From NCBI RefSeq assembly GCF_024585165.1, contig NZ_CP029008.1, positions 2,914,001-2,978,000 on the forward strand: a DNA stretch of 64,000 bases. Reading direction: 5' to 3'. The first letter of the stretch is position 1, and each line of letters starts with the position of its first letter. Shown here piece after piece: positions 3,171 through 55,829 of the stretch. The position numbers and the translations under genes are program-made. Source of the stretch: Bradyrhizobium sp. WBOS07. GTDB lineage: Bacteria > Pseudomonadota > Alphaproteobacteria > Rhizobiales > Xanthobacteraceae. A model generated the notes under the pieces. The model saw only the letters and a program-made list of their open reading frames with translations. It did not search any database and was not told where the DNA came from.

Positions 3171-4789
3171 GCGGCGCCGCGGGTTTGGTCATTGCGCCCA
3201 TCATCCTCCCGCTGCTGGCAGGTGCCGGCATGCTGCTGCTCAATGGAGAAAAGCACCGGACCATCGTCGCCGGCCTCAACGTCGCGGGAACCCTCGCACT
3301 GGTATGGATCGCGGCGATCCTGCTTGGATTATCAGATTCCGGATCCCGCATCGTCTATCGTTTGGGCAATTGGCCTGCTCCGTTCGGAATAGTCCTCGTC
3401 CTCGATCGGCTGTCCGCGCTCATGCTGATGCTGAGCAACGTGCTGGCACTGGCTTCGGCTGTGTTCTCTCTTGCGCGTTGGCACCGGGCGGGTGCGCATT
3501 TCCATTCCTTGTTTCAGTTCCTGCTGATGGGCCTCAACGGCGCCTTTCTCACCGGCGATCTCTTCAACCTTTTCGTATTCTTCGAACTGTTGCTGGCGGC
3601 TTCATACGGCCTTCTGCTGCATGGCTCCGGCCTCACGCGGGTGAAGGCAGGACTGCATTACGTCGTGGTGAACCTTGCGGCCTCTTTGCTGTTTCTGATC
3701 GGAGTCAGCCTGATCTACGGCGTCACGGGGACGCTCAACATGGCCGATCTTGCGGCGCGGATGCCGCAGGTCGCCGCGGAGAGCCGCGGCTTGCTCGAAG
3801 CCGGTGCCGGCGTGCTCGCAGTCGCCTTCCTCCTCAAGGCCGGGATGTGGCCCCTGAGCTTCTGGCTGCCCACGGCCTACGCAGCCGCAACTCCGCCGGT
3901 CGCGTCGATCTTCGCGATCATGACCAAGGTCGGCGTGTATGTCGTGCTCCGACTATCGCTGTTGCTTTTCGGCGAAGGCACCGGCGCTTCGGCCGGCTTC
4001 GGCAGCGACTGGTTGTTGTGGGGTGGATTGGCGACGATCCTGTTCGGGGCGATCGGCACATTGGCGTCGCAGGACACCGCCCGCCTCGGCGGCTTTTCGG
4101 TGCTCGTATCCTCTGGAACCTTGCTCGCCGCGACAGGGATGGGACAAGTCGGCGTCACCGGCGGCGCGCTGTTCTACCTCGTCAGTTCGACGCTCGGCAT
4201 CAGCGCGTTTTTCCTTCTCATCGAACTCATCGAACGCGGCCGCGAACCTGGTGCGGACGTGATCGCCGTCACCAGGGAGGCTTATGGTGAAGAAGTCGAA
4301 GTGGAAGAAACAGACGAGAATGTCGGCATCGCCATCGTAGCCACCATGGCGTGGCTGGGCGTCGCTTTCATTGGATGCGCGCTGGTGATCGCCGGCTTGC
4401 CGCCCTTATCAGGGTTCATCGCCAAATTTGCGCTGCTTGCTGCGGCGCTCGACCCGGCAGCCGTGCATCGGAGCGGTACCGTTCCCGGCAGCGCATGGGC
4501 GTTTCTCGTGGTGCTGATTCTGTCCGGCCTCGCGACGTTGATTGCGATGACACGCGCCGGAATCCGCATCTTCTGGGCGTCGCCGGATCGCACGGTGCCG
4601 CGTGTACGCCTGATCGAGATGGCGCCGATCATGTTCCTGCTGATCATGTGCGCGGCACAAACGGTCTTGGCGGGACCCGTGATTCGTTTCATGCAGGCTA
4701 CGGCGCAGTCTCTGCACGCGCCAACCGGCTACGTCGGTGACATCCTGGAAACTGGCGTCCGAGACAGTCGAAAGGCGGACAGCAAATGA
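3167..4789 (+). CDS. phaD: Monovalent cation/H+ antiporter subunit D (MrpD/PhaD)
   Basis: 540-aa NuoN/NuoL-like polytopic membrane protein of the antiporter. It carries the proton-antiporter core with the glutamate-containing FNLFVFFELLLAASYG segment and the lysine segment AFLLKAGMWPLSFWLP, both part of the proposed proton path. A hydrophilic acidic insert (around residues 365-390, EEVEVEETDEN) sits between membrane segments. It starts with GTG in a four-base GTGA overlap with subunit C and ends in a four-base ATGA overlap with subunit E. Confidence 0.96.
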   Translation: MSGAAGLVIAPIILPLLAGAGMLLLNGEKHRTIVAGLNVAGTLALVWIAAILLGLSDSGSRIVYRLGNWPAPFGIVLVLDRLSALMLMLSNVLALASAVFSLARWHRAGAHFHSLFQFLLMGLNGAFLTGDLFNLFVFFELLLAASYGLLLHGSGLTRVKAGLHYVVVNLAASLLFLIGVSLIYGVTGTLNMADLAARMPQVAAESRGLLEAGAGVLAVAFLLKAGMWPLSFWLPTAYAAATPPVASIFAIMTKVGVYVVLRLSLLLFGEGTGASAGFGSDWLLWGGLATILFGAIGTLASQDTARLGGFSVLVSSGTLLAATGMGQVGVTGGALFYLVSSTLGISAFFLLIELIERGREPGADVIAVTREAYGEEVEVEETDENVGIAIVATMAWLGVAFIGCALVIAGLPPLSGFIAKFALLAAALDPAAVHRSGTVPGSAWAFLVVLILSGLATLIAMTRAGIRIFWASPDRTVPRVRLIEMAPIMFLLIMCAAQTVLAGPVIRFMQATAQSLHAPTGYVGDILETGVRDSRKADSK

Positions 4790-5274
4790 CACGCTTCCTG
4801 CCCTTTCCAATCGTCAGCTTCTGCCTGCTCGCATTGTGGCTGCTGCTCAATCAAGCGCTTACGTTCGGCCATCTCCTCCTCGGTTGTGTCGTTGCGCTCG
4901 CCGGCGGTCGGATTCTCACCGTGCTCGAGCTACCGCATACACGTCTCAGGCGCCCCGGCCTCATGCTGCGATTGTTGGGCCTGGTGGCGGTTGACGTCAT
5001 CCGCTCAAATCTTGCGGTGGCGCAGATCGTTCTCGGCTTCGGGCGGCGGCACCGAAAGTCGGGATTCGTGAACATTCCTCTCGACATGCGCAATCCGTAC
5101 GGGCTGGCCTGCTTGGCTTGCATCATTACGTCGACCCCCGGCACGCTTTGGGTGAACTTCGATGCTCAGAAGGGCTCGTTGTTGATCCATGTTCTGGACC
5201 TCGTCGATGAAGACGACTGGATCCGCACCATCAAGGACCGCTACGAACGCCATCTGCTGGAGATATTCCAATGA
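4786..5274 (+). CDS. phaE: Monovalent cation/H+ antiporter subunit E (MrpE/PhaE)
   Basis: 162-aa protein with hydrophobic N-terminal segments followed by a cytoplasmic domain, as usual for MnhE. The segment ending ACIITSTPGTLWVNFD and the later LLIHVLDLVDEDDW are typical of the family. It is thought to help assemble or stabilise the antiporter rather than carry the ion path. Four-base ATGA overlaps on both sides place it firmly in the operon. Confidence 0.95.
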   Translation: MTRFLPFPIVSFCLLALWLLLNQALTFGHLLLGCVVALAGGRILTVLELPHTRLRRPGLMLRLLGLVAVDVIRSNLAVAQIVLGFGRRHRKSGFVNIPLDMRNPYGLACLACIITSTPGTLWVNFDAQKGSLLIHVLDLVDEDDWIRTIKDRYERHLLEIFQ

Positions 5275-5552
5275 GCCAGCTCGTGCTCAGCTACTCGCTC
5301 GTCGTCGCGCAGATCTTGGTAGGACTGGCGATCGGATGCGGTGCTGTCCGCGTTTTTCTCGGGCCGCGGGCGCAGGACCGCGTCCTGGGCTTCGACACCT
5401 TGTCCGTGAATGCGATGTTGCTGCTTTTGACGTTCGGAATCCGATCCGGCGAGCCGCTCTATTTCGAGGCGGCTCTGGCCATGGCGGTCTTCGGTTTCGT
5501 CGGCACGGTCGCGTTGGCCAAGTTCCTGCTCCGCGGCGAGGTGATCGAATGA
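5271..5552 (+). CDS. phaF: Monovalent cation/H+ antiporter subunit F (MrpF/PhaF)
   Basis: 93-aa protein with three hydrophobic segments, a typical MnhF. The RVFLGPRAQDRVLGFDTLSV segment between membrane helices 1 and 2 is the family hallmark. In other bacteria MrpF has been linked to bile-salt/Na+ efflux as part of the complex. Start and stop overlap the neighbouring genes by four bases (ATGA). Confidence 0.94.
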   Translation: MSQLVLSYSLVVAQILVGLAIGCGAVRVFLGPRAQDRVLGFDTLSVNAMLLLLTFGIRSGEPLYFEAALAMAVFGFVGTVALAKFLLRGEVIE

Positions 5553-5899
5553 ACGGCATCGAACAATTGCAGCCCTGGGCCGCTGCTCTCACGGCGGTTC
5601 TCCTTCTGCTCGGCGCTTCTGTCACGCTGATCGGTTCGCTGGGACTTTTGCGGCTCAACACGTTCTACGAACGGGTCCATGCGCCGACACTCGGGACGAC
5701 GCTCGGCACTTTCTTCATCGCGGTCGCTTCAATGCTCTACTTCTCCGTCCTGCAGAGCAGACCAGTGTTGCATGAAATGCTGATTGTGGCGTTGGGCATC
5801 GTGACGACTCCGATTGCGCTGACAGTGTTGGTGGGTGCGGCCCGGTTTCGCGATACTGCCGAACGGACTACTCAGGCCGGCGAGCCGGAGGCCGATTGA
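5549..5899 (+). CDS. phaG: Monovalent cation/H+ antiporter subunit G (MrpG/PhaG)
   Basis: 116-aa last gene of the antiporter operon. I chose the ATG at 5549 because it sits in the same four-base overlap used throughout the operon; the frame stays open further upstream inside phaF, but that is shadow. It has three hydrophobic segments and the LLRLNTFYERVHAPTLGTTL motif diagnostic of MnhG. The charged C-terminal tail is short. No clear T-rich terminator follows; a GC-rich hairpin lies 245 bases downstream. Confidence 0.94.
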   Translation: MNGIEQLQPWAAALTAVLLLLGASVTLIGSLGLLRLNTFYERVHAPTLGTTLGTFFIAVASMLYFSVLQSRPVLHEMLIVALGIVTTPIALTVLVGAARFRDTAERTTQAGEPEAD

Positions 5900-6208
5900 G
5901 ACCAGGCCCGGGGCCTCATTCGCCAACTGCGCGCTCGTTCCAGGCGTCTCTGCGGACCGGCCAAGGCCGGCTAAATGCCGCATTTGAACTCGAGCCGCGC
6001 ATACCCAAATTGAGTGTGGAGGCCGCGTGCGAGTCCGCCGCGACGATCCGGGATGGCATTTCGGCCATCCGTAAACAGAGGATATGATGGCCAGAGCGCT
6101 TCAATATCGAATTCATGGGAACCGGCTGCTGATCGGCCGGTAACCCGGGCGATTCCACATCGCCCGGGCGCGGCACCTCAAGGTTCTGAACCAAACCGGG
6201 AGTTCTCC
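5900..6208. other. Intergenic region with a strong GC-rich hairpin
   Basis: No convincing gene. The one structure is a perfect 10-bp inverted repeat, CCCGGGCGAT at 6144-6153 and its complement at 6159-6168, with a 5-base loop. No T-run follows, so it is not a classical rho-independent terminator. It lies 40 bases before the start of the small ORF at 6209 and could end the antiporter transcript or structure the leader of the next one. Confidence 0.5.
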
Positions 6209-6334
6209 ATGGCGGTATTTTTAGCACTGTTCGTCCTGACTTCATGGATCATGTTCATCTGGATTTGTGATCCCGACGGATTCCGCGCGGCATCTGCTCG
6301 GCGCCCGCCACCGATCCGTGATGTAAGAAAGTGA
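6209..6334 (+). CDS. Possible small membrane protein (41 aa)
   Basis: A short ORF starting ATG at 6209 with a GGGAG ribosome-binding site 6-7 bases upstream. The first 20 residues are strongly hydrophobic (MAVFLALFVLTSWIMFIWIC), enough for one membrane helix, followed by a basic tail. It lies between the antiporter operon and the universal stress protein. No family is recognised. The RBS and clean helix favour a real gene, but coding cannot be proved at this length. Confidence 0.45.
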   Translation: MAVFLALFVLTSWIMFIWICDPDGFRAASARRPPPIRDVRK

Positions 6335-6518
6335 CGCCGGAGGTGCCTTGTTGCCTCGCGCCCCAGTGCACATCGTTGCGTTCGAGCGCCACGCGATCGC
6401 CTGCACGTCTCGCGGCGGGTCCGCGCGATCCGGCATCATAAGCCGTTCCCCCAAACCAATCGAATTGCCACAGCCGGTAGCGCTTTGCCGCCACCGCTGG
6501 CCCATATGAGGTCCTGAC

Positions 6519-7427
6519 ATGAACATCGTCGCTGCGACGGATTTCTCGACACGCTCACATCGCGCTGTGCGGCAGGCGGGTCTGCTGGCTCGCGCCAAGC
6601 ATGCTGAGCTGCATCTTGTCCATGTGGTTGACGATGATCGACCGCCTGATCTGGTCCACATGGAAGAGCGCGAGGCCCATCGGGTCCTGATCGAGCAGAT
6701 CGGAGCCGTACCGGAACTGCGTGATATTCGCTGTCATCCGACGGTCATCAAGGGCCATCCCGTCGATGGGATATCGCGCGCAGCCGCGGCGGCCGGCGCG
6801 GATCTTGTCGTCATGGGCGCTCATCGCAAGCAGTTTTTGCGCGATATGGTCACAGGTACCACTATCGAGCGGGTCATTCGCGGAGGAAAGTATCCGGTGC
6901 TGATGGTGAACAATGAGGCGCAGCGGCACTACGAGCGGGTTCTGGTGCCGGTCGACATGTCCGACACGTCCGCACAAGCAATTCGCGTCGGTCTATCCAC
7001 CGGGCTGCTTGAAGATGAAGCAGCAACGCTTCTGCATGCCTTCTCGCCTATGGGAAAGACGCGGCTGATCAGCTCTGGCGCGAGCACCGCCGTCATCGAT
7101 GGATACGTCGAGAGCGAGCGGCACAGAGCGATGGAGGAACTGAGCGCCTTTCTCGTGACCAATGGGTTCGACATGCGACGATGGTCGCTTCGGGTTGGCG
7201 AAGGCGGAGCGGTGCACGTCATAACCCGTGCCGTCGAGGAGAAACGGCCTGATCTGCTGGTGATGGGCACGCACAGCAGATCCGGATTGCTGCGGGCGTT
7301 GATCGGGAGCGTAACGGAAGAAGTCCTGCGTTCCGTGAATGTGGACGTCCTGGTCGTGCCTCCCGTCGAACTCCGAGCATCGAATCCGGACGATCGGTCC
7401 AGGATCGAAGCTGCAACCCGCACCTGA
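6519..7427 (+). CDS. Tandem-domain universal stress protein
   Basis: 302-aa protein made of two UspA domains (about residues 1-138 and 142-290). Each carries the nucleotide-binding G-2X-G-9X-G(S/T) signature: GAHRKQFLRDMVTGTT in the first and GTHSRSGLLRALIGSV in the second, so ATP binding is plausible. The ATG at 6519 follows a GAGG ribosome-binding site. Family members act in the cytoplasm during stress, starvation or low oxygen, but the specific trigger here is unknown. It stands alone downstream of the antiporter operon. Confidence 0.92.
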   Translation: MNIVAATDFSTRSHRAVRQAGLLARAKHAELHLVHVVDDDRPPDLVHMEEREAHRVLIEQIGAVPELRDIRCHPTVIKGHPVDGISRAAAAAGADLVVMGAHRKQFLRDMVTGTTIERVIRGGKYPVLMVNNEAQRHYERVLVPVDMSDTSAQAIRVGLSTGLLEDEAATLLHAFSPMGKTRLISSGASTAVIDGYVESERHRAMEELSAFLVTNGFDMRRWSLRVGEGGAVHVITRAVEEKRPDLLVMGTHSRSGLLRALIGSVTEEVLRSVNVDVLVVPPVELRASNPDDRSRIEAATRT

Positions 7428-7579
7428 GGCTTGCGCTCGATCGCGTCATCGTGCGCCGATCAGATCGTCCGCGATCTCGGGGACATCATGACTGAAGCCG
7501 ACTGTGCCGGTCGCGCCCGCCTCCGCAGGTTTCATCCGGCACGGTCGCAGTGCGTGCGCATCGATGCGGACAGTCCAGC

Positions 7580-7720
<141 letters not shown>

Positions 7721-7917
7721 TCAATCTCCGCGTCGCGCTTTGGTGACCGGCTGACCGTCGCTGGAGAACTCCGTCTCCAAGACTTTGGTACCGCAAAAAG
7801 CGAGCGAAATTGAGGATTCTGCTCCAGGTCGGCTTGGAAGCGCCTGCGGAGATCGCTCGAGGCGAAGCTTAAGGCTTCTTCTCGGCGGGAACTGCCGTTC
7901 CCCTTGCTTGCAGCAGC

Positions 7918-51156: not shown

Positions 51157-51327
51157 TCACGCCGCGCCGTCGTCATGCCCGTCGTCGGCGCCGGCTGCGG
51201 CTTCCCTCACCTCCACCAGCGCCATCGACAGCAGATAGACCGTCGTCGGCAGACCAAGCCTGCGCGCCTTCTCGGCGGCACGCGACAGGTCGCTGGCCAG
51301 CTCCTCGAGCTCGTCTCCCCGTGACAA
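51157..51327 (-). CDS. Small helical protein (56 aa), last gene of a LysR-linked cluster
   Basis: Too short for ordinary ORF cut-offs. From TTG 51327 (GGGG 7 bases upstream) it encodes SRGDELEELASDLSRAAEKA, then RRLGLPTTVYLLSMALVEVR and an acidic tail. The regular hydrophobic spacing suggests a compact helical protein, not noise. I recall similar short rhizobial hypotheticals. It follows the isochorismatase-like gene by 30 bases on the same strand, so it is probably part of the same operon. Function unknown. Confidence 0.62.
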   Translation of the reverse strand: MSRGDELEELASDLSRAAEKARRLGLPTTVYLLSMALVEVREAAAGADDGHDDGAA

Positions 51328-51357
51328 TCCCTCACCCCATCCGCCGGTCGCGGCCGC

Positions 51358-51921
51358 CTACACCGCAACGACGCCGCTGGTTCTGATCAGTTCGGCGCTG
51401 GATTGGATTGTAGCAAAATTCCCGACCACATTCACTACCGCATGCTTGTAGGCGGCGGCATCGCCTGTGCCCGGCTGTCGGCAAGCCACGGCGTCGGCGA
51501 CGACCTGGTAGCGATGGCTGCGGTGAAACCCGTCGGCGGCGGTGGCCAGGATCGTCTCGTCCAGCGAAAACCCGACCAGAATGCAGTGCACACTGCGGAT
51601 ATTGGACATGTAGTCCACAAACCGCGACGAGCTGTAGGCAGACGGCAGCGGGTGCTCGAACGTCAGTTCCCCCGGCCGCGGCTTCATCTCCGCGATCCAA
51701 TCGGTCAGCCTGGATGCCGGATTGAACCAGGCGGCCTGCGCGATGCGCTTCAGGTGCATCACCGGCCACAGATTGCCGCGCCACAGCGTCAGGAGTTCCA
51801 GGCAGCGCGCCATGGCGCCGTCGCCGTCGAGGATGACGTGGCGGCGCCCTGGGGTCAGATATTCGATCTGCAGATCCGCGCAGACCAGGATCGGCGGATC
51901 GTCGTGGATGGAAGCCAGCAT
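51358..51921 (-). CDS. Isochorismatase-like protein lacking catalytic Lys and Cys
   Basis: 187 aa from ATG 51921. The fold is recognisable (LVCADLQIEYLTPGRR at the start, HCILVGFSLDETILATAADG in the core). The Asp of the catalytic triad is Asp16, but the usual Lys position is His90 (EHPLPSAY) and the nucleophilic Cys position is Thr123. It is therefore probably not an active cysteine hydrolase. Lies 25 bases after the GNAT gene and 30 bases before the 56-aa gene. Confidence 0.78.
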   Translation of the reverse strand: MLASIHDDPPILVCADLQIEYLTPGRRHVILDGDGAMARCLELLTLWRGNLWPVMHLKRIAQAAWFNPASRLTDWIAEMKPRPGELTFEHPLPSAYSSSRFVDYMSNIRSVHCILVGFSLDETILATAADGFHRSHRYQVVADAVACRQPGTGDAAAYKHAVVNVVGNFATIQSSAELIRTSGVVAV

Positions 51922-51946
51922 TGTGTTGCGCCGAGCTGCACCAGTT

Positions 51947-52567
51947 TCAGCGGTCGGCGAGCGCGAGGTCCCGCAGCGGTGAGGTCACCGCCCGCCCCGC
52001 CGAGGCGTCGAGCACGCCCGGCCGGTCCCAATCGCCCTCGGGACGGATGATCACATAGGGATCGCTGTCCAGCGTGATCGCGTCCGGGCCCGGCTCGATC
52101 TCCAGCAGCATCTCCGTGTAGGAAAAATCCGAGAAGGTGATCTTGCGATTATGGCCGAGCGGCTTGGCGCCGAAATGCGCCCAGAAATCCACCAGCCTGT
52201 CCTGCGCCTGCCCGTAGATCTTGCGAAATCCCTTGCGCTTCACGTAGTCCACGCTGGCCTGCACCAGCTTGAACGAGACGCGCGAGCGCCGGTATTGGTG
52301 ACGCACCGCAAGCCGCTCCACCTTGGCGAAATCGCCGAAGAAGCGCACCCGCAGGCAGCCCGCAGGTTCGTTGCCGACGAAGCCGATGAAGTGCGCCGCG
52401 ACCATGTCGTTACCGTCGAACTCCTCCTCGAACGGACAATCCTGCTCGGCGAGATAGACCGCGGAGCGAATGGCGGTGACCAGCATGAGATCGTTTGGAT
52501 CGCGCGCAAGGCGGATGGTGATGGCGCGGGAACTGGGCTTGGCGACGGGAATCCTAGTACCGTGCAT
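51947..52567 (-). CDS. GNAT-family acetyltransferase
   Basis: 206 aa from ATG 52567 with AAGGAG upstream. The N-terminal half has AIRSAVYLAEQDCPFEEEFD and ACGCLR-like core as GCLRVRFFGDFAKVERLAVR, followed by RSRVSFKLVQASVDYVKRKG, which is the CoA-binding helix. Overlaps the previous gene by 14 bases, implying coupling. Substrate unknown. Confidence 0.82.
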   Translation of the reverse strand: MHGTRIPVAKPSSRAITIRLARDPNDLMLVTAIRSAVYLAEQDCPFEEEFDGNDMVAAHFIGFVGNEPAGCLRVRFFGDFAKVERLAVRHQYRRSRVSFKLVQASVDYVKRKGFRKIYGQAQDRLVDFWAHFGAKPLGHNRKITFSDFSYTEMLLEIEPGPDAITLDSDPYVIIRPEGDWDRPGVLDASAGRAVTSPLRDLALADR

Positions 52568-53171
52568 CTGCAAAACTCCTTGCTTGAATGATCGCGCCCG
52601 GCATGCGCATCGGCTGCCGATGCCAGGGCCGCTCGTAGCACCAGAGGTCGGGCTGGAAGCTTGGGACAGGTGCAAAGCCGGTCGCCCTCATGATGTCGCG
52701 TCCGGCCACCGTTGACGGCTGCGCATAGCAATCCGCGCCGCGAAACCTTAGCTGTCGCAGATGTGCCGCCGCCTTGCCGAGACCGGCGATGCCCCGCCCC
52801 GTCGCCGCGATCGCCCAGATGTAGATGGCGGCGACGTCTTCCTTCGCGGAAGCGAGATAGTGCGTCTCCGGCGCGGTCAGGCAGATCTCGTCGAGCAGCA
52901 GCGCATCATGCCCGCGGTCATTGAGAAACAGAAAGGCCATGCCGCCGACGAGATGGCCCTTTCGGCTGAACGTCAGAATGCTCTGAGGATCGAACGTGGC
53001 ATATCGCGCAAGCTCTTCCGCTCCGATCCGCACGCCCGGCACCAGCCGGTGCGCCATCTGCGCCAGCGCGGCTATTTCGGAAGATTGCGCGCACCGGACG
53101 TCCACATCCGGGCTCAGCGGCAAGGCATCGAAATCATGCCTTGCGGCAAACGAGCCCCTTTCCATACCCAT
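52554..53171 (-). CDS. GNAT-like protein, first gene of LysR-linked cluster
   Basis: 205 aa from ATG 53171. A divergent GNAT fold is inferred from the strand-helix pattern (GHLVGGMAFLFLNDRG, then GIAGLGKAAAHLRQLRFRGA and MRATGFAPVPSF, the last resembling the usual end of GNAT). The canonical Q/RxxGxG/A loop is replaced by GRGIAGLGKAA. Lies 71 bases from the divergent LysR gene. Function unknown. Confidence 0.7.
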   Translation of the reverse strand: MGMERGSFAARHDFDALPLSPDVDVRCAQSSEIAALAQMAHRLVPGVRIGAEELARYATFDPQSILTFSRKGHLVGGMAFLFLNDRGHDALLLDEICLTAPETHYLASAKEDVAAIYIWAIAATGRGIAGLGKAAAHLRQLRFRGADCYAQPSTVAGRDIMRATGFAPVPSFQPDLWCYERPWHRQPMRMPGAIIQARSFADARY

Positions 53172-53242
53172 ATCACGCCTCTATCGTTCGAGGCTTTCGT
53201 GCCCCGCTACGCCGAGGAGCTTAGCGGCTGGAGATCAGGAGT

Positions 53243-54283
53243 ATGCACCAGTTATTGCACCGGGGTGCTGCGATGACGCAGCACCGTGAAGAGGCCCTGG
53301 ATGCGTCCTGGGACGATTTGAAACTGTTTTTAGCATGCGCAAAATATAAAAGTTTCCGCAACGCCGCCGAGGAGCTCGGGCTCACCTCGACCACGCTGAT
53401 GCGCCGGGTCGACCGGCTCGAAGAGAGCATCGGCTGCAAGCTGTTCCTGCGCGACCAGAGCGGGCTCACGCTCAGCGATGAAGGCACAGCAATGATCGCC
53501 GACGTTGCGCATATGGAGCGTCATGCCTTCAACGTCTTCCGGCGCGCCTCGCGATCGTCGAACGACACCTCGGGCACCGTGCGCGTCGCGGTGACGGAGG
53601 GGCCCGGCAATTTCTGGATCCTGCCGCGACTGATCGACTTCCAGAAGACCTACCGCAGGATCACCGTCGATCTGCGCTGCGCGATGGAGCAGACCGACGT
53701 CGCCCGGCTTGAATCGGACATCGCGATCCAGCTCGAGCCGCCCACCAATCCCGACCTGATCGTCACCAAGCTCGGCCGCCTGCACATCTATCCCTTCGTC
53801 TCCAAGGAGTACGAAAGCCTCTACGGTGTGCCGGCGACCCTCGCAGAGCTGAAGGACCACCGCATCATCAAACAAAGTGCACCGCAGGTCGACGACGGCG
53901 CCTACGCCCGCGTGCTCGGACTGAAGTCGCTGGAGGGCATCGTCGGGATCAAGACCAATTCCTCGGTCGGGGTGCTCTATGCCGTCGAACGCGGCGCCGG
54001 CATCGGCTTCCTGCCGACGGTCTCGATCGCGCTCGGCGCGCCGCTGATCGCCGTCGATCTCGGCGTCAGCCACCACGCCGATCTCTGGCTCACCTATCAC
54101 AAGGAGTTCCGCGCCTCCGAGCGCCACAAGATCGTGGTCGACTGGCTGAAGAAGATCTTCGATCCCAAAACCTATCCCTGCTTCCGCGACGAGTTCATCC
54201 ATCCGAACGCGCTGGTGCCGATGATGGCGGCCGCGCGCGAGGGATTTGGGCTGACGGGATATGTCGCCACGACGCCGGCTTGA
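53243..54283 (+). CDS. LysR-family transcriptional regulator
   Basis: 346 aa (or 336 from ATG 53273). N-terminal HTH: LKLFLACAKYKSFRNAAEEL and LTSTTLMRRVDRLEESIG; effector domain follows from about residue 110. Divergent from the two-GNAT/isochorismatase-like cluster with 71 bases between starts, so it probably regulates it. Confidence 0.9.
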   Translation: MHQLLHRGAAMTQHREEALDASWDDLKLFLACAKYKSFRNAAEELGLTSTTLMRRVDRLEESIGCKLFLRDQSGLTLSDEGTAMIADVAHMERHAFNVFRRASRSSNDTSGTVRVAVTEGPGNFWILPRLIDFQKTYRRITVDLRCAMEQTDVARLESDIAIQLEPPTNPDLIVTKLGRLHIYPFVSKEYESLYGVPATLAELKDHRIIKQSAPQVDDGAYARVLGLKSLEGIVGIKTNSSVGVLYAVERGAGIGFLPTVSIALGAPLIAVDLGVSHHADLWLTYHKEFRASERHKIVVDWLKKIFDPKTYPCFRDEFIHPNALVPMMAAAREGFGLTGYVATTPA

Positions 54284-54301: not shown

Positions 54302-55459
54302 TCACCATTTGTACTCGAAGCCGACGGTGCCCTGGTGCGAGGTCAGCTCGTTGCGGAATTTGCCGTCGTAATTGACGTAGAGCCGCGCCACGCTGGTCAG
54401 GCTGAGCGAAGCCGAGGCGCCGGCATCCGCGCCATAGCGGCTCTCCCCGATGCCGGGAACGACGATGTTCTGGGTTCCCAGGCTGACCTGGATCGACCCG
54501 AGATCCTGGTGAAAATTATCGACGAACTTGCCGTAGGCGGACAGGTCGAGGATTTTCTGGTCGATGATGAAGTAGCGGCCGATCTCGGCTCCGATCATGA
54601 CGCGTGCGCGCGCGAGCGCCGTCGAGCCGACATTGAGCGGATCGAGGCCGCCGGTCTCCTGGAACGCCGCGCTGGTGGCACGCACATATTCCAGCGCCCC
54701 CTTTGGAACGACACGCATCTGGTCTTGGGTCCAGTAATAGCTGATCTCGGTCAGCGCGCCGTCGATCGCCGCACGATAACCCGCGGTCGCAAGGCCGAGA
54801 CCGGTGTCGCGGCTGGAGCGGACCTTGCCGAAGCCGTGCACCACGGCGAAGGCCCAGGTCCACGGGCCCTTGTCGACCGAGCCGCTGAAACCGATTTGCG
54901 TCAGGTCGAGCGTCGCCGATTGCAGCGCCAGCGGCACGTCGACGTCGGTGTGGCTCTGGTCGACGGAGAAGCCGAGATTGACGCCCGGCGCAACGCGCGC
55001 GCCAAAGCCGGCGACGCCGCCAACCGTCTTGCGCTTGTCGCCGACGAAGTCGCCCTGTGCGTCGGTGCGAACCGAGATGCCGTAGCCCTCGACCCAGGTG
55101 CGGTAGCGCGGATCCTCCGTGCTCGCCGATGCGCCGCCGCCGCCGGGATTGGTTCGGAACGCCCGGTTGTAACCACCCGAGGCCTGGTTGCCGAGCCGCT
55201 CCAGGAAGCCCGAGCCGAGATTGAGCGCGCCGCTGCGGACCGACTGGTCGTAATTGGTCGATGTCGGCGTCGGGATCGGGGTCGGTGACGGAGTGGGTGT
55301 CGGGGTCGGCGTGGGCGTCGGGCTTTGCGCCAGGACGGGCGATATGGCCGACATCATCACGACGATCGCAAACGCCATCGCGATCGCTGCCGCGACCCTG
55401 CCGACGCGGCCACGTCCGATCGTCTGCCGTGTCCCGGAGGGCTGCGATGTGCAGCACAT
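54302..55459 (-). CDS. Autotransporter-type beta-barrel outer-membrane protein with Pro-Thr linker
   Basis: 385 aa from ATG 55459 (a TTG at 55501 would add 14). Signal sequence (about residues 20-45, ending SPVLAQS), then a Pro-Thr repeat region (TPTPTPTPTPSPTPIPTPTS) encoded by a GTCGGG-type tandem repeat near 55265-55325, and an autotransporter beta-domain (about 120-385) ending in aromatic FEYKW. There is no long passenger domain, so it may act as a porin-like or surface protein. Stop is 18 bases from the LysR stop. Confidence 0.82.
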   Translation of the reverse strand: MCCTSQPSGTRQTIGRGRVGRVAAAIAMAFAIVVMMSAISPVLAQSPTPTPTPTPTPSPTPIPTPTSTNYDQSVRSGALNLGSGFLERLGNQASGGYNRAFRTNPGGGGASASTEDPRYRTWVEGYGISVRTDAQGDFVGDKRKTVGGVAGFGARVAPGVNLGFSVDQSHTDVDVPLALQSATLDLTQIGFSGSVDKGPWTWAFAVVHGFGKVRSSRDTGLGLATAGYRAAIDGALTEISYYWTQDQMRVVPKGALEYVRATSAAFQETGGLDPLNVGSTALARARVMIGAEIGRYFIIDQKILDLSAYGKFVDNFHQDLGSIQVSLGTQNIVVPGIGESRYGADAGASASLSLTSVARLYVNYDGKFRNELTSHQGTVGFEYKW

Positions 55460-55829
55460 GACGACAAATCCCGAAAGCCAATGGCGACGCGCAAGATGCA
55501 ACGTGCACGCAAGCTGCGATTTGGGCCGAACTGCACCGGAGGGTCAACCGCTTAGCATGCCGGCACGCAGGCTATTGCCTCGATTGTGGTTCCGCCGCCA
55601 CAGGTCGGAAATTGCAAATCGGTCCGGCCTGCCTGCCCTTGAAATTCGCGCTCTGCTTGCTAACGCGCGATTTTCATGTTGCAATATCGGACACAATCGG
55701 AATTGGCCGCTCGACTGTGCGTTTCGCGACATTGCGCCTCAAGACTCGAACAGACTTCGGAAGCCCGTTTGTGGCGTGGCACGCGAAAAGCGGCCGCGTC
55801 TTTTTTGTATCTAGTGGAGGAGACTAGCG
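55460..55829. other. Leader and upstream region of the cold-shock gene
   Basis: No gene seen. The sequence turns AT-richer just before the cold-shock start, with a TTTTTTGTAT patch (55801-55809) and a GGAGGAG ribosome-binding site. Such long leaders commonly fold differently in the cold. Confidence 0.45.

Follow-up and report, generated by a model that had tools for sequence, protein, structure and literature searches.

A recurrent LysR-linked gene set of Bradyrhizobium encoding two GNAT-like proteins and an isochorismatase-fold protein with an altered triad

The stretch of 64,000 nucleotides analysed here (the window) comes from Bradyrhizobium sp. WBOS07, whose genome of 6.73 Mb is a single contig (NZ_CP029008.1, positions 2,914,001 to 2,978,000). 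It contains a five-gene locus in which a LysR-type regulator gene on the forward strand diverges from four genes on the reverse strand, encoding two GNAT-like proteins (GNAT1 and GNAT2), an isochorismatase-fold protein (ISO) and a protein of 56 amino acids (aa). The set recurs across the genus and, in part, beyond it, and very probably constitutes one functional unit. With a probability of about one half, LysR controls a double-GNAT acyltransferase here that acts on a small amine or amino acid and is accompanied by an isochorismatase-fold protein lacking the triad. GNAT1 and GNAT2 would be the two halves of the acyltransferase, ISO would bind or slowly hydrolyse the small compound or its acylated product, the 56-aa protein would serve as a helical adaptor or regulator, and LysR would sense the substrate or product and control the operon from the divergent region.

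Gene order and its recurrence

The features of the locus, identified from the open reading frame list and the sequence, are as follows.

53243..54283, forward strand: LysR-type regulator (PF00126, 62.1 bits; PF03466, 88.6 bits)
52554..53171, reverse strand: GNAT1, a GNAT by fold, with no matching Pfam family (AlphaFold model and Foldseek)
51947..52567, reverse strand: GNAT2, ElaA/YjcF-like GNAT (PF00583; PDB relatives)
51358..51921, reverse strand: ISO, isochorismatase-fold protein with D16-H90-T123 replacing D-K-C (PF00857)
51157..51327, reverse strand: small protein of 56 aa, initiated at TTG, with two helices predicted in its core (conservation; ratio of nonsynonymous to synonymous substitution rates, dN/dS; hhalign)
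53257..53268, no strand: candidate LysR operator, inverted repeat GCACC-GG-GGTGC in the first LysR codons (synonymous constraint)

GNAT1 and GNAT2 overlap by 14 bases, gaps of 25 and 30 bases follow, and the divergent starts of LysR and GNAT1 lie 71 bases apart; the tight packing and the divergent regulator described in the initial annotation are thus confirmed. That annotation had also asked whether the same order occurs in other genomes, and had held that the genes never being found together elsewhere would refute it. A scan with ISO, limited to one genome per species, returned 65 loci (63 titled Bradyrhizobium, one Bradyrhizobiaceae and one Alphaproteobacteria), and LysR, GNAT1, GNAT2 and ISO are present in unchanged order in all 65, so this objection falls away. 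The 56-aa gene accompanies them in 63, being missing from L061 and L063. The closest named relatives are Bradyrhizobium, such as B. frederickii (L003), with module proteins that are 94–100% identical. In these 65 loci, the module with separate GNAT1 and GNAT2 genes (the split type) occupies a fixed chromosomal place.

In the window, a PRK06105-type class-III aminotransferase gene adjoins the module, and the module could accordingly be a catabolic or amino-acid side pathway serving this or a similar enzyme. The occurrence of ornithine-cyclodeaminase-like and BenE-type genes downstream of the module in three f5 genomes (Pfam assignment on L135 only) is consistent with such a role. However, in 5 of the 65 loci some 4 kb separate the aminotransferase gene from the module, and in three others (L061, L063 and L064, of which L061 and L064 are short contigs) it was not seen; it is therefore probably not a fifth member of the unit. 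The neighbours of the module also vary by family. A side pathway of this kind is considered improbable.

In the order as a whole, GNAT2 found a match at E 0.001 in 38 of 199 genomes and a strong one (E < 1e-22) in 26. GNAT1, detected in 25 of the 199, is present in 24 of the 26 genomes with a strong GNAT2 and adjacent to it in all 24, and a profile added a weak GNAT1 in G185 as the 25th of the 26. ISO reaches E 1e-20 in 19 of the 199 genomes, and E 2e-69 or better in 16 of these. The close ISO family, in 16 genomes (four of the genus and 12 of other families), stands beside GNAT2 in every case, and the three weaker ISO matches all fall in genomes without a strong GNAT2. At the 22 strong loci of the order outside the genus, LysR is always beside the GNAT genes (divergent in 21, convergent in L187). 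The notion of a conserved four-gene unit elsewhere is upheld by the recurrence itself and loosened outside the genus, where GNAT1 is found in 21 and ISO in 13 of these 22 loci. Outside the order, eight strong loci were found, with LysR adjacent in six, one gene away in one and lacking in one, GNAT1 in six and ISO in one. The one locus with ISO, in G460, has the complete four-gene set, while a plasmid of Aureimonas sp. AU20 carries only LysR, GNAT2 and a small gene. GNAT1 is rare beyond the order: of 289 genomes of the class, 3 have it, the source genome of the window among them. In addition, the pairwise divergences of LysR, GNAT1 and GNAT2 correlate across 19 loci (r 0.81–0.85; 0 of 2000 permutations), a correlation to which shared host ancestry may contribute.

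Split and fused versions of the module

GNAT1 and GNAT2 form a single reading frame of 347–412 aa in L140, L141, L142, L143, L188, L178 and L217. Among 146 Bradyrhizobium genomes, GNAT2 is present in 104, of which 92 have the split type and 12 a second, fused type (type 2); 42 have neither and none has both, an exclusion with a probability of 2.8e-6 if the two were independent and phylogeny is left uncontrolled. The count of 92 includes G672 (frameshifted) and G642 (two contig pieces). The fusion itself could be read at 11 of the 12 type-2 loci; L219, for which no genes were called, does not enter the type-2 counts. For L134, L137, L140, L141 and L144, genes were called with a second version of the gene caller. 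In L218 (G672, ~6646–7691), GNAT2 lies in two overlapping frames with the other genes of the set intact, a frameshift that is either real or due to sequencing.

Type-2 GNAT2 is only 46–50% identical to split-type GNAT2 in the 12 Bradyrhizobium genomes. All 11 readable type-2 loci contain the fused GNAT1-GNAT2, ISO, a gene of 56–78 aa and a gene of 392–421 aa, and LysR is present in 10, the remaining locus (L216) beginning at a contig end. The terminal gene has the size of an MFS gene in all 11 and was assigned by Pfam as an MFS transporter in the two tested. At L208, a helix-turn-helix gene and an EamA exporter gene follow beyond LysR, and the opposite flank carries purA and ybaK, which places type 2 at a different chromosomal position from the split type. 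In a GNAT2 tree of 45 rows, the 7 type-2 Bradyrhizobium rows group together with support of 100/100 and are separate from the split clade, which has 22 rows including the window and support of 95/96; the fused label requires at least three changes. A single genus thus maintains the gene order in two versions of old standing, which is the strongest sign of a functional unit. The type-2 loci, together with the recurrence in 65 of 65 loci and the adjacency of ISO in 16 of 16 genomes, rule out a chance neighbourhood.

The exporters beside type 2 (MFS in two tested, EamA in one tested) also suit a role in detoxification or resistance, in which the GNAT pair would acetylate and ISO hydrolyse an amine or lactam toxin from the environment, LysR would induce the genes on exposure and the exporters would expel the product. 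Streptothricin is known to be acetylated by SAT enzymes. The isochorismatase-like hydrolase SttH attacks the same compound, as described in an excerpt of PMC5353710. Moreover, 42 of the 146 Bradyrhizobium genomes lack the module, as would suit a trait that can be dispensed with. In contrast, GNAT2 is widespread in the genus and constrained like the neighbouring RNase D (median dN/dS 0.043 versus 0.050, medians being taken from 11 of the 65 loci picked for spread), and it is the most constrained member of the set. There is no significant match to a resistance family (sat3, E 0.069), ISO lacks the Cys used by such amidases, and the chromosomal location of the split type is constant. Detoxification is thus regarded as possible but unlikely. 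An anti-phage defence system was also considered and rejected, with 0 PADLOC families for the four proteins.

The two acyltransferase-like proteins

GNAT2 is the core of the module. It belongs to the GNAT superfamily by PF00583 (36.4 bits, cut-off 20.7) and is single-copy in its own genome. Its PDB relatives are the ElaA/YjcF-like proteins 1q2y (YjcF), 5jq4 (SACOL1063) and 5z6n (ElaA), with which its core and an EQ-x-CP-x(2,3)-E-x-D region align, whereas the change of a loop Gly to Arg, about 60 extra C-terminal residues and the partner GNAT1 set it apart. The C-terminal extension contains an RPEG-x-W motif (alignment A1). The canonical GNAT pyrophosphate loop is Q/R-x-x-G-x-G/A, and GNAT2 departs from it with R93-x-S/T-R96-x-A/S98. 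Across 22 sequences, R93 is kept in all, the Gly96 position is Arg in 19, Thr in two and Gly in one, and position 98 is Ala or Ser in 19. Among named families, ElaA (NF007644) scores 29.1 bits, under its curated cut-off of 171, and the Nit1C/MSMEG_0567/Sll0786 GNAT family (TIGR04045) was rejected at 22.1 bits with a cut-off of 68.45. In L184 (5793–8323, G321), a tandem pair of GNAT2-like genes stands behind a cytidylyltransferase-like gene.

A weak similarity to the N-acyl amino acid synthase FeeM (PF21926; 14.8 bits in the window, 21.1 bits in the best remote sequence, L140) raises the question of an acyl-signal system like LuxI/FeeM, with GNAT2 making an N-acyl amino acid signal and ISO quenching it. 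The isochorismatase-like HqiA does degrade acyl-homoserine lactones, but it retains the D, K and C residues that ISO lacks (PMC5430456, in excerpt). Every FeeM match is under the curated cut-off of 27 bits, and the nearest solved relatives of GNAT2 are ElaA/YjcF-like. Such a signal system is very improbable, and the signalling role suggested in the initial annotation is a guess.

No GNAT Pfam family was found for GNAT1 at E 0.05 in any of 18 members, and no sequence relative in the PDB (best E 0.064). Its AlphaFold model (mean predicted local distance difference test score, pLDDT, 81.5) has the strand and helix order of a GNAT and matches GNAT structures in Foldseek, with AANAT, Ard1, EctA and SxtA/CurA/GphF in the top rows and modest template modelling scores (0.40–0.57 by query) among the 50 best matches listed. 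Judged by this model, GNAT1 belongs to the GNAT superfamily by fold only. The earlier description of two GNAT-like proteins therefore holds by sequence for GNAT2 and by fold for GNAT1, which has no sequence family. The coenzyme A (CoA) loop of GNAT1 is reduced to one invariant Gly, G130 (18 of 18); the initial annotation had reported the lack of a canonical loop in this protein, correctly but incompletely, since the GNAT2 loop is altered too. At the sequence level, hhalign gave no sign that one of the two proteins is a duplicate of the other (probability 0.3%). In three genomes, a LysR gene and a GNAT1-like gene were observed near a gene of 1109–1124 aa (L198:7488–9213 in G033, L199 ~6089–7799 in G075 and L200 ~4214–5918 in G192).

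Double-GNAT enzymes such as HisAT/NAT16, NMT, Eis and mycothiol synthase have two GNAT folds per chain, as do the fused homologues. In the window, on the other hand, there are two overlapping genes with both loops altered, and the likeness is one of fold. One domain is usually the active one in double-GNAT enzymes (PMC12219266, in excerpt). If the module follows this pattern, catalysis may reside in GNAT2 while GNAT1 has a structural part, an assignment that is tentative given the alteration of both loops.

The isochorismatase-fold protein

ISO belongs to the isochorismatase-like hydrolase superfamily (PF00857, 59.3 bits, cut-off 27), and shares the fold and the catalytic Asp16 with PhzD, YecD, 4h17 and 3oqp. 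In a profile alignment to solved relatives, Asp16 is kept, position 90 falls on the Lys of 4h17 and 3oqp, and position 123 falls on the Cys of 3oqp and the Ser of 4h17. D16, H90 and T123 are invariant in 57 of 57 Bradyrhizobium-type sequences (the window and 56 of the 65 loci), and the initial reading of these three residues was accurate. Of the D-K-C triad at 16, 90 and 123, ISO hence has only the Asp; it also departs from the D-K-G pattern of PhzD and YecD, since His or Arg replaces the Lys in the ISO family. In the wider alignment A10 (17 sequences), position 90 is Arg in 13, His in three and Lys in one (L139), the same sequence being the only one with Lys among the 15 of alignment A3, and Arg is found in most relatives outside Bradyrhizobium. 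Cys is at position 123 in none of the 15 or 17 sequences, and at position 124 in 13 of the 17. Asp16 is invariant in every sequence compared, and Q18, R48, P93, S94, Y96, G117, H136, D143 and C40 are likewise invariant in A10, while E20, R26, H56 and E85 are invariant in A3 and not retained in type 2. The median dN/dS of 0.185 and the invariant pocket residues rule out a decaying pseudogene.

Three of six isochorismatase-like subgroups are without the nucleophilic Cys, as in active PhzD (D38-K122-G155), and YecD also has no Cys at this position (PMC5353710, in excerpt). Because true isochorismatases such as PhzD share the lack of Cys, only the loss of Lys, which PhzD and YecD keep, is unusual in ISO. 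In the same excerpt, the C111T mutant of MhIHL lost most of its activity, which disfavours Thr as a nucleophile in ISO. The designation of ISO as dead or non-catalytic was thus too strong, given active PhzD without Cys and a basic residue at position 90 in all 17 sequences. Judging from the alignments, the loss goes far back and extends to the whole family, whereas the pocket has been conserved. Either ligand binding or an isochorismatase-like reaction that does not use a cysteine would account for this.

The small protein and the divergent region

The 56-aa gene is real: its reading frame is intact and conserved at 63 of the 65 loci, it has a median dN/dS of 0.20 (11 pairs), and its profile is related to small proteins beside remote modules (hhalign probability 95.3, E 2.3e-8), which rules out a spurious reading frame. 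The core consists of two predicted helices, and no paralogue was found at E < 0.3 in its own genome. Of 64 sequences, 60 start with TTG, as though weak initiation had been selected, three with GTG and one with ATA; in L064, an ATG directly precedes the start codon. No relation to the small protein of type 2 was detected (probabilities 0.8% and 7.2%), and position alone is shared. No similar small reading frame was found by eye in four loci (L126, L127, L129 and L130).

LysR has a median dN/dS of 0.081. Across 63 rows, synonymous variability is lowest at LysR codons 5–13 (0.016 versus 0.140 elsewhere in the gene) and is also low at GNAT1 codons 1–12 (0.037 versus 0.169 elsewhere), which suggests regulatory DNA over both starts. 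The inverted repeat at 53257–53268 falls within the low-variability LysR codons and is a candidate LysR operator.

Weighing the proposed function

The double-GNAT acyltransferase reading is based on the recurrence of the set, the adjacency of ISO, the gene fusion, the co-divergence, the MFS and EamA genes of type 2, the downstream genes in f5, the operator-like constraint and precedents. In the CysB/OatA pair of Salmonella, the genes are not in one operon and the GNAT family differs from that of the module; oatA is not known to be located beside cysB. The pair is nevertheless a precedent, in that the product of a GNAT raises a LysR (CysB) regulon, a tie of the kind proposed here (PMC6277577, in excerpt).

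Several observations weigh against this reading. Of the 22 strong loci that belong to the order but to other genera, 9 are without ISO and 1 is without GNAT1, and outside the order ISO is missing from 7 and GNAT1 from 2 of 8; therefore, neither is needed everywhere. LysR is not adjacent in L217 and L185, and GNAT1 occurs beside LysR without GNAT2 in three genomes of one genus. The GNAT1 and GNAT2 profiles have no relation detectable by hhalign, and the structure model of GNAT2 is unusable (pLDDT 43.7). An acyl-CoA reaction is not assured, because both CoA loops are non-canonical. Moreover, one section of the excerpted work on OatA bears the title 'DAS Does Not Change CysB Binding Patterns in vitro' (PMC6277577).

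A bolder version is doubtful at best: an undescribed alphaproteobacterial make-and-sense module, in which the double-GNAT enzyme with its two altered loops would make a new acylated molecule for its own LysR, and the Asp16-His90-Thr123 centre of ISO, re-tooled in Bradyrhizobium from Asp-Lys-Cys, would turn that molecule over. The gene set had not been recognised initially, and it still matches no described system in the open-access literature, where no publication on it was found by title or start of abstract (subscription journals and preprints lie outside this scope). If the acyltransferase reading is true, ~70% of the Bradyrhizobium genomes sampled (104 of 146) carry a conserved, regulated enzyme unit that combines a GNAT domain outside all Pfam families with a textbook triad lost throughout a family. 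The two versions at unrelated loci in one genus would offer a natural cross-complementation test, and LysR would be a ready reporter for finding the compound.

Beyond LysR, the stretch at 54302–55501 encodes an autotransporter-domain protein (PF03797, 104.9 bits) with a Pro-Thr-Ser repeat stretch.

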